Source: Hyphomicrobiales bacterium (GTDB lineage: Bacteria; Pseudomonadota; Alphaproteobacteria; Rhizobiales; MH13). Taken from it: 64,000 nt of DNA. The notes under the pieces were generated by a model, which worked only from the letters and a program-made list of their open reading frames with translations, was not told the DNA's origin and ran no database searches. A program made the translations under genes and the position numbers. Below, in pieces: positions 26,527-28,208 of this stretch. The stretch's first letter is position 1. Each line of letters starts with the position of its first letter. The stretch lies in contig JAEPOK010000002.1 of NCBI GenBank assembly GCA_017642935.1, positions 1,237,501-1,301,500 on the forward strand, read 5' to 3'.

Positions 26527-26853
26527 TCAGCTTTTGCACCAGGCTTGGTGCAAATAGGCGATGAGACCGCGAATGTCGTCTGATGCCAGCGTGTAATAAA
26601 TCGTTGTGCCGTCGCGGCGTGTGGACACCAATCCGTGGGCGCGCAAAAGCGCCAGGTGTTGGGATAGTGTGGTGGGTTTGCTGCCGGTGAGCTCTGCCAA
26701 AGTGCCAACCGATTTCTCGCCGTCCACCAAGTGACACACTGCCAGAAGCCGCGCCGGGGCGCTGAGCAGTTTGAGAATTTCCGTCACTTCGCCGACATTG
26801 GCGGCCATGGAGTCGGCAGTCGGGGAAGGCCGTTCAAGGGTTTGGGTCGACAT
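26527..26853 (-). CDS. ArsR/SmtB family repressor, BigR/SqrR-like
   Basis: 108 residues from ATG 26853. Winged helix-turn-helix with recognition region ELTGSKPTTLSQHLALLRAHGLVSTRRDG and wing TTIYYTLA. Two cysteines stand at the positions used by persulfide sensors of this family: one in LLAVCHLVDGE before the HTH and one in the last residues (AWCKS). No metal-binding ELCVCD motif is seen. This fits the BigR/SqrR group, which releases DNA when a per- or polysulfide bridge forms. It is the second gene of a minus-strand pair behind the operator at 28172-28193. Confidence 0.85.
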   Translation of the reverse strand: MSTQTLERPSPTADSMAANVGEVTEILKLLSAPARLLAVCHLVDGEKSVGTLAELTGSKPTTLSQHLALLRAHGLVSTRRDGTTIYYTLASDDIRGLIAYLHQAWCKS

Positions 26854-26907
26854 GGTTGGCTCGCAAGAGGCCACGGGCTGGAGGTCCAGCCCGTGGGTCG
26901 ATTGGGG

Positions 26908-28152
26908 TTAGGCCGTGGCGGCGGTGCTCAAGGGTGCCGTTGGCGCCTGCCGCATCAGCTTAGCAAGCAGCTTGAAGAACAGCCAGATGGCCAGCACTTG
27001 GAACAGCAGCGGGATGGCTGTGACACTCCAATAGGCGAGACCGAACTTCGCGATCAGGCCGGTGGCGACCAAGCCCTTGTTGATCAAGAAGTGACCCATC
27101 ACCGAGAAGGCGACCACCGGGCAAAGCAGGGCGAGTGATCCTGGCGAGGATTCTGGTCCACTTATGAAGCGGCCGAGATAGTTCGTCTTTTTCAGCGCGC
27201 CCCACCCTGCGGCAAGCAACAGGATCTGTGCGGCAATCAAGGTGGTCAGCATCATAAAGGTGCTGCCAGCCGAGGTGTGCGCATCGAAATGCACGTGCAA
27301 ACCATGGTTCTGGCGCAGGAACGCGATGCCGAGCACGGTGAGGATCGGCACGCCGATCATCAAGGTTGGCGCGCCATCGGCAGCCAAGCCATTTTCCATC
27401 ATCGAGCGCACGCCGAGAGTCAGGGCGATCAAGCCCTGAACGATCGATGCCAAGATAAACAGCGTCGAAAGGCCGAGCGAGACGGCGACGGTGACAGCAT
27501 TTGTCGACATGGCCGCTGGGGCTGCCAGTCCAACACCGATCATGGCGAAGGCAAAGGCGGGCAGCATCTGCGCCAGCGAGTTGTTTTTGGCGCAGTCCAG
27601 TCCGCCGCCCAGCGCGTTGCTGGCAAAGCGGGCAAACAGTTTGAAGGCATAGAAGCCGATAATGGCAAACGCGATCATGGCCAGCGGGAAGAGGTATTCC
27701 ACTACGCTCCAAAGGTTCGGCACGAACACCAGGCCGAGAATAAAACCAGCATTGATCGCCATCGCGAAGGCGAGTGGCATCGCCATGATCTGGCTGCCGG
27801 CATTGCTGCCCATCAGCGTGTCATAGGCCGGCGTACGCGAAAACTGGCGCAGGCGTTGGACGTTCCAGACCAGAAGCCGGACGAGCGTCGCACCGAAAAA
27901 GGCGATGCCGGCCAAGGCGATGGAGATGGCGGCCTGCATGGCGAGACCTCCGGTGGAGAAGGCAGCCATTACGTCTTCAAACACCGGAACCGGTTGTCCC
28001 GGATGCGGCACCCAGAACATCAAAAACATGAAGAAGGTGACGACCAGACCGCCGGCGCCAAGGGCGGCAAGAAACATCAGGGGGCTGTAGGGCGCGGGCC
28101 CAGATTGCGCTGCCGCGTTGGCCTGCGGCGCTAGGGTTGCAAGTGTGCTCAT
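26908..28152 (-). CDS. Multi-pass inner-membrane protein (possibly TsoY-like)
   Basis: 414 residues with about ten to eleven hydrophobic helices, beginning PLMFLAALGAGGLVVTFFMF. The start is ATG 28152 with GGAG 6 bp upstream; ATG 28164 is an alternative. Charged loops such as ARFASNALGGGLDCAKNN and the HFDAHTSAGSTFMM segment with His and Asp suggest a transporter or redox membrane protein. I think it resembles the TsoY (seleno)protein family, but I cannot verify this. Co-transcribed with the ArsR repressor gene 54 bp downstream, so it probably handles a sulfur compound. Confidence 0.7.
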   Translation of the reverse strand: MSTLATLAPQANAAAQSGPAPYSPLMFLAALGAGGLVVTFFMFLMFWVPHPGQPVPVFEDVMAAFSTGGLAMQAAISIALAGIAFFGATLVRLLVWNVQRLRQFSRTPAYDTLMGSNAGSQIMAMPLAFAMAINAGFILGLVFVPNLWSVVEYLFPLAMIAFAIIGFYAFKLFARFASNALGGGLDCAKNNSLAQMLPAFAFAMIGVGLAAPAAMSTNAVTVAVSLGLSTLFILASIVQGLIALTLGVRSMMENGLAADGAPTLMIGVPILTVLGIAFLRQNHGLHVHFDAHTSAGSTFMMLTTLIAAQILLLAAGWGALKKTNYLGRFISGPESSPGSLALLCPVVAFSVMGHFLINKGLVATGLIAKFGLAYWSVTAIPLLFQVLAIWLFFKLLAKLMRQAPTAPLSTAATA

Positions 28153-28171
28153 GGGAAGCTCCATTTCTGAA

Positions 28172-28208
28172 TATATTTGTATATACAAATATAATGGATA
28201 AATGTCTA
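28172..28208 (-). promoter_or_regulatory. Promoter with perfect AT-rich operator for the ArsR operon
   Basis: The minus strand has TAGACA (28208-28203), a 17-base spacer and TATATA (28185-28180). The -10 box is the centre of a perfect 22-bp palindrome (28172-28193) with half-site TATATTTGTAT. Published BigR sites are AT-rich dyads over the -10 box, so this is the likely operator of the adjacent ArsR repressor. Confidence 0.7.

Follow-up and report, generated by a model that had tools for sequence, protein, structure and literature searches.

The closest described relatives of the locus analysed here are the BigR, SqrR, YgaV and HlyU regulators of the ArsR family. In the bigR operon, an ArsR repressor that responds to sulfide and polysulfide is co-transcribed with a TauE-related protein held to export sulfite (PMC5823870). 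In R. capsulatus, the SqrR site reads ATTC-N8-GAAT (PMC9774250). On the side of the membrane protein, a review lists a selenoprotein TsoY with a UxxV motif, crediting Haft and Tolstoy 2025, and also covers the Tso operon of three selenoproteins (PMC13188914). The entry for TsoY in that review gives the name and the selenocysteine motif, and a function is not stated there (PMC13188914). Among the literature matches listed, none linked TsoY with SLAC1/TehA, SqrR or BigR, and the work of Haft and Tolstoy (2025) may cover part of this ground.

Here we describe a two-gene unit, tsoY-arsR, found in a 64-kb stretch of DNA (hereafter, the window). The unit resembles the BigR/SqrR/YgaV/HlyU systems in the ArsR fold of its repressor, in the cysteine positions of BigR and HlyU and in a palindrome over the promoter, and the 7-N8-7 frame of this palindrome contains the spacing of the SqrR site ATTC-N8-GAAT (PMC9774250). 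It differs from BigR-type regulators in that the repressor scores under the BigR cut-off, the half-site ends in T and not in C, and the partner is tsoY, whereas blh, sqr or a rhodanese takes that place elsewhere. As in the bigR operon, an ArsR gene is paired with a membrane protein gene; however, blh is missing here and the membrane protein comes from another family. The window protein is the cysteine form, unlike the selenoprotein TsoY. With the TehA/SLAC1 (TDT) proteins it shares a predicted fold and a concentration of conserved positions on the odd helices, but it has no Pfam SLAC1 match, carries Cys344 in place of the gate phenylalanine and is about 100 residues longer than TehA.

The tsoY-arsR unit and its promoter

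The unit spans positions 28208-26527 of the window, all on the minus strand, as read from the window sequence and its list of open reading frames (Table 1). Of the two possible arsR starts, the ATG is more probable, since the GTG that opens the longest reading frame sits within the inter-gene hairpin. No T-run was found 3′ of this hairpin. The tsoY-arsR gap of the only further operon with this layout that we found (locus L085 of genome G548, a sequence that contains some N) also folds as a GC-rich hairpin, unrelated in sequence to that of the window. Such inter-gene hairpins may serve in RNA processing or attenuation and thereby reduce the amount of repressor made. NCBIfam and Pfam profile scans of the four neighbour genes in the window recognised no sulfur function, and no selenoprotein gene was recognised beside tsoY.

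Table 1. Positions in the window of the genes, codons and putative regulatory elements of the tsoY-arsR unit
Feature	Position	Strand	Remarks
tsoY	26908..28152	-	ATG at 28152, stop at 26908; 414 aa; ten long helices (predicted)
arsR, BigR/SqrR-like repressor	26527..26853	-	From the likely ATG start; 108 aa
arsR, longest ORF	26874-26527	-	115 aa from GTG
First sensor-type cysteine codon	26734..26736	-	Cys47 in the 115-aa ORF, Cys40 from the ATG
Second sensor-type cysteine codon	26536..26538	-	Cys113 in the 115-aa ORF, Cys106 from the ATG
Cys344 codon of tsoY	27121..27123	-	Invariant; aligned with gating Phe262 of HiTehA
tsoY/arsR inter-gene hairpin, GC-rich	26872..26895	-	11 pairs in the fold; covers the arsR GTG start
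-35 like hexamer TAGACA	28203..28208	-	Spacer to the -10 of 17
-10 like hexamer TATATA	28180..28185	-	Inside the palindrome
22-bp perfect palindrome TATATTTGTATATACAAATATA, probable operator	28172..28193	.	Half-sites TATATTT-N8-AAATATA

A first-pass annotation had read a promoter TAGACA-N17-TATATA with its -10 inside a 22-bp perfect palindrome, and both the coordinates and the letters were confirmed. The two hexamers are a reading of the sequence, in which the -10 assignment is plausible. A consensus promoter scan of the region returned no promoter-like site; its rule demands T as the final -10 base, and the scan missed TATATA for that reason.

No other perfect palindrome in the window exceeds 14 bp, and no second match to this one with up to three mismatches was found there, nor any in 100 shuffles. 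In the motif scan of the 3.74-Mb genome that the first-pass annotation had suggested, the 18-base core with up to three mismatches was found at one place, this locus, where the match is exact. The control, the same core read backwards with up to three mismatches, was likewise found at one place. A single genome match at that looseness may be chance; the exact match hardly can be. The window palindrome contains ATTT-N8-AAAT, which is not a SqrR site ATTC-N8-GAAT: it shares the frame of that site and differs in the last half-site letter.

A proposed model for sulfur-responsive control of tsoY

We propose that a dimeric BigR/SqrR-type ArsR would sit on the palindrome over the -10 and keep tsoY-arsR off, and that a persulfide or polysulfide would link the two cysteines of the repressor, so that it leaves the DNA and TsoY is made together with more repressor. 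TsoY would be a pore of the SLAC1/TehA fold with an invariant cysteine in place of the gate phenylalanine, passing a sulfur species across the inner membrane. Most likely this would be export, the cargo being sulfite, thiosulfate or polysulfide formed as sulfide is oxidised. Repressor binding, persulfide as the signal, transport, its direction and its substrate are the steps that we infer. To the reading as a whole, in which sulfane sulfur would release the repressor and thereby induce a cysteine-gated SLAC1-fold outlet or conduit for sulfur species, we assign a probability of roughly 55%. Yeast Ssu1, a TDT protein, is a sulfite pump. This precedent makes sulfite export attractive, as does the TauE-related sulfite transporter of the bigR operon.

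Three lines point toward the job of TsoY, namely the predicted SLAC1/TehA fold, the invariant cysteine at the putative gate position and the SqrR-type box that stands before most of the tsoY genes examined. Under this model, the bacterial response to sulfide would include one more kind of membrane outlet, in addition to the TauE-like and YeeE-like proteins, and the role of Sec in selenoprotein TsoY would become testable in culturable alphaproteobacteria with the cysteine form.

SqrR-type boxes upstream of tsoY in relatives

The box TAYATTC-N8-GAATRTA, which contains the SqrR site, was present at 43 of 55 tsoY loci and at none of 382 control upstreams taken from the same loci (counted at 12 or more of 14 positions, in the 140 bases that precede the start of the match); the other 12 loci score below 12 of 14. 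These 55 loci come from one scan and are nearly all from Rhodobacteraceae.

As an exact match, the box was found at 16 places in 10 of 23 chosen genomes, compared with none for the box read backward, and it is missing from the other 13 genomes, that of the window among them. Of these places, seven lie at tsoY in six genomes (the one in G662 being placed by coordinates and letters), four stand before rhodanese genes and one, in G548, stands before a YeeE-family (PF04143) gene pair. The four rhodanese genes are single-domain and lie in four genomes, all of which have tsoY (L130, L132, L133 and L136, box near position 1501); the gene divergent from them is presumably uvrA, judging by its first residues. 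Boxes at such genes fit the SqrR pattern, a rhodanese being among the targets of SqrR in R. capsulatus (PMC9995734). The remaining four of the 16 exact boxes lie in L129, L131 and L134, near position 1501, and at G548:C131:2981-3002.

With a degenerate box, drawn up after the sites had been seen, at least 18 of 21 positions were matched at 14 of the 20 tsoY loci from the order (G548 included) and at 2 of 468 controls. Sister boxes close to TATATTAG-N6-CTAATATA lie upstream of tsoY at six loci (L194, L195, L197, L199, L200 and L201), and no repressor gene adjoins tsoY in the stretches examined there. Two further loci from the class, L218 and L219, have boxes scoring 19 and 17 of 21. For the two YeeE-family genes of the window's genome, the best box scores 15 of 21, which is usual in controls too.

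TsoY is predicted to have a SLAC1/TehA fold

The partner of the repressor had at first been described as a 414-residue multi-pass membrane protein, possibly TsoY-like, and an HMM search makes it a clear member of the TsoY family (NF047644, 485.4 bits against a cut-off of 150, covering profile positions 1-376 of 378). It has no Pfam match at an E value of 0.1, PF03595 (SLAC1) included, and PF03595 has no match anywhere in the window's genome. A relation to TDT proteins from sequence alone was rejected: hmmsearch of the TsoY profile against the PDB gave chance hits only, and hhalign probabilities between TsoY and TDT were low (28-68% in global and 3-9% in local mode, weak by themselves). The relation rests on the fold.

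The AF2 model of TsoY, built from 44 sequences, has a pLDDT of 91 and a pTM of 0.90. Searched with this model, Foldseek placed TehA on top, at a modest E value of 5.6e-4 and a TM-score of 0.54 by query length. VIA-align 2 returned 22 rows of TehA, SLAC1 and SLAC1-like chains, with Z scores of 24.8-30.2 over 294-320 residues, and the row following this set, a designed helical barrel, has a Z score of 15.7. Four of the 22 rows come from entries titled S1 and S3, which we take to be SLAC1-family chains. The predicted fold of TsoY is thus that of SLAC1/TehA, with ten long helices. Furthermore, positions conserved at 97% or above make up 31 of 132 residues on odd helices and 10 of 165 on even ones (Fisher p = 1.7e-5, for a test picked after the model had been seen). 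In TehA, it is the odd helices that line the pore (PMC11050165).

An invariant cysteine at the putative gate position

The gate of HiTehA is Phe262, on TM9 (PMC11050165), and the matching residue of SLAC1 is F450 (PMC3509319). L178, a TehA-like protein of the phylum sample, can be aligned end to end with 3m71 in the same numbering, and at residue 262 the PDB entries 3m73, 3m74 and 3m75 depart from it. In eight of eight profile alignments (four TDT masters, each in local and global mode), Cys344 of TsoY is aligned with the gate phenylalanine and Pro345 with the residue after it. All four masters derive from a single 18-sequence alignment, so that these eight results do not count as independent. 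The agreement of these low-probability alignments, taken with the fold, suggests that Cys344 occupies the gate position. As the gate phenylalanine is replaced by Cys344, we file the window TsoY under the SLAC1/TehA fold only and not as a TDT channel.

Cys344 is a cysteine in 88 of the 88 TsoY rows that reach its column (a set holding the window once and the G548 gene twice; the row left over, the 89th, comes from a plasmid copy with a frameshift). It is the only conserved cysteine, the sole other one, Cys187, being cysteine in 31 of 89 rows. Five further residues, His50, Asn97, Asn134, Glu152 and Arg280, are identical in all 89 rows. Cys344-x-x-Val347 fits the published UxxV motif (PMC13188914) and Cys187 does not; judging from this motif, the Sec of selenoprotein TsoY would stand at the position of Cys344. 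The window protein itself has a Cys codon at residue 344 and scores 48.2 bits with the selenoprotein TsoY model NF047643, below its cut-off of 250, and no internal stop indicative of a Sec form was found in the 12 TsoY matches of the 398-genome phylum sample. More speculatively, TsoY may be a new kind of pore, whose thiol (or selenol) gate is opened by, or hands on, the sulfane sulfur sensed by the repressor. If true, signal, gate chemistry and cargo would all be one element, and the selenoprotein form of TsoY would work alike, with a selenol as its gate.

The main rival to the model of a cysteine-gated outlet takes TsoY to be a conduit or importer of sulfane sulfur, in which persulfide exchange at Cys344 (Sec in selenoprotein TsoY) would move the sulfur through the pore. 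Persulfide exchange has been proposed for the cysteines of the YeeE/SoxT transporters, and the co-regulated YeeE pair in G548 would agree with a conduit, as would the invariance of Cys344 at the gate position, the fit of UxxV to Cys344 and not to Cys187, and the five residues that are the same in 89 of 89 rows. However, for a relay one would expect more cysteines than the single conserved one of TsoY, and the equation of Sec with Cys344 is read from the motif. We regard such a conduit as possible but rather unlikely.

The repressor carries the cysteines of BigR and HlyU

The repressor of the proposed outlet has a winged-helix ArsR domain (PF01022, 34.7 bits, cut-off 22) and scores 77.8 bits with NF033788, over a cut-off of 55. 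Its solved relatives found by sequence search include HlyU, BigR and YgaV. The first-pass annotation had noted two BigR/SqrR-type cysteines, and in four PDB alignments both coincide with the cysteines of three HlyU-like chains and of BigR. In ATG numbering they are Cys40 and Cys106, which is close to the Cys41 and Cys107 of SqrR.

The same annotation had named the conservation of these cysteines beforehand as a point on which its reading could fail. Both are kept in 28 of 29 aligned homologues, the first in 28 (it is missing in L157) and the second in all 29, in one of these by a gapped alignment. The homologues come from 35 matches in 23 chosen genomes, of which the 29 with a locus, besides the window's own, were aligned. 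In the window's genome, the only close BigR-like ArsR is that of the window; the three other ArsR matches score 43 bits or less, and two of them (L082 and L083), translated and inspected by eye, are without the cysteine pair.

The repressor is not filed as a BigR equivalog, because it scores 82.1 bits with NF040642, for which the curated cut-off is 155. Of the earlier label of a persulfide-sensor-type ArsR, the cysteines at the BigR/HlyU positions thus stand, while membership in the curated BigR family does not, and we consider the persulfide-sensor reading supported, not proven.

A different assignment would make the ArsR a metalloregulator and TsoY a transporter of an oxyanion such as tellurite, selenite or arsenite. 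NCBIfam does call TsoR a metalloregulator, and TehA, the match by fold, is named for tellurite resistance; the window repressor also scores over the cut-off of a broad model named metalloregulator ArsR/SmtB. But it reaches only 31.2 bits with TsoR (NF045707, curated cut-off 115) and lies far below the cut-off of the metal-sensor model CmtR, its cysteines are at the BigR/HlyU positions, and other tsoY genes have boxes of the SqrR pattern, which rhodanese genes share. A metal or metalloid system is therefore unlikely, and control by sulfane sulfur is the reading that we prefer.

At 30 loci with a BigR-like arsR, autoregulatory boxes beat the best of 40 shuffles in 10 cases, and with this proportion we claim no recognition code. 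The window and G548 are among the 20 that do not beat it, because their operator precedes tsoY, outside the stretch tested.

Distribution of tsoY and of the tsoY-arsR layout

Counting the window's genome each time, TsoY scores over its cut-off in 12 of 398 genomes from the phylum, in 4 of 385 from the class (5 with any match), in 22 of 397 from the order (29 with any match) and in 3 of 5 from the family. An ArsR gene beside tsoY as a general rule was rejected, since most of the tsoY loci examined have no adjoining repressor. At the 55 tsoY loci, with flanks of up to 6 kb per side (shorter at nine loci), an ArsR-like reading frame was found at three, with 19 bits each and none within about 3.9 kb of tsoY. 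No ArsR was found in 13 loci of about 4.1 kb each (L062-L074), in seven longer stretches (L075-L081) or at the two class loci L218 and L219. Clustering of the neighbours of tsoY gave mostly antisense reading frames and lineage synteny, from which we draw no functional partner.

The tsoY-arsR layout recurs in one of 20 other loci from the order (about 1.5 kb examined per side), that of G548, a genome from another family. There the repressor gene lies behind tsoY in the same order as in the window and keeps both cysteines; its product is 69% identical to the window's, the next in 297 genomes of the order being at most 57%. A palindrome TATCTTC-N8-GAAGATA starts 43 bases before the assumed tsoY start, compared with 41 in the window. 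Both half-sites have thus changed alike and the frame is kept, as would be expected of an operator under selection, which supports the operator role that had been predicted for the window palindrome. Among the TsoY proteins aligned, that of G548 is the closest to the window's (59.7% identity, compared with 56.8% for G001 of the same family and 44.4% for G003 of the same genus), a sign that the whole operon may have moved together.

The expectation that orthologous operons would carry the palindrome was borne out in the only such operon found, that of G548. Conservation of the palindrome in the genus was rejected: G003 and G001 have no box upstream of tsoY (scores of 13 and 12 of 21) and no ArsR beside it in the stretches examined. 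G002 and G004, also of this genus, have no tsoY match. That the two genes are chance neighbours, with the ArsR controlling itself or something else and another protein reading the palindrome, would suit the rarity of the adjacency (the window and 1 of 20 other order loci), but is very improbable given that the G548 operon keeps order, cysteines, operator frame and hairpin despite 69% repressor identity and another family, and that the window's genome has just one exact copy of the palindrome core.

Two plasmids carry tsoY-like genes. In an Aliarcobacter plasmid (L167, 6001-7240), an unannotated tsoY copy lies near a SulP anion transporter and is frameshifted near its end; as a Sec form it was rejected, its early end being due to the frameshift and not to a Sec codon. 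In a Pseudosulfitobacter plasmid (L168), a tsoY-like gene annotated as hypothetical stands beside a BCCT transporter gene, and on its other side, on the opposite strand, are genes for an M20 aminoacylase, an L-2-amino-thiazoline-4-carboxylic acid hydrolase, an FAD oxidoreductase and a PLP enzyme.
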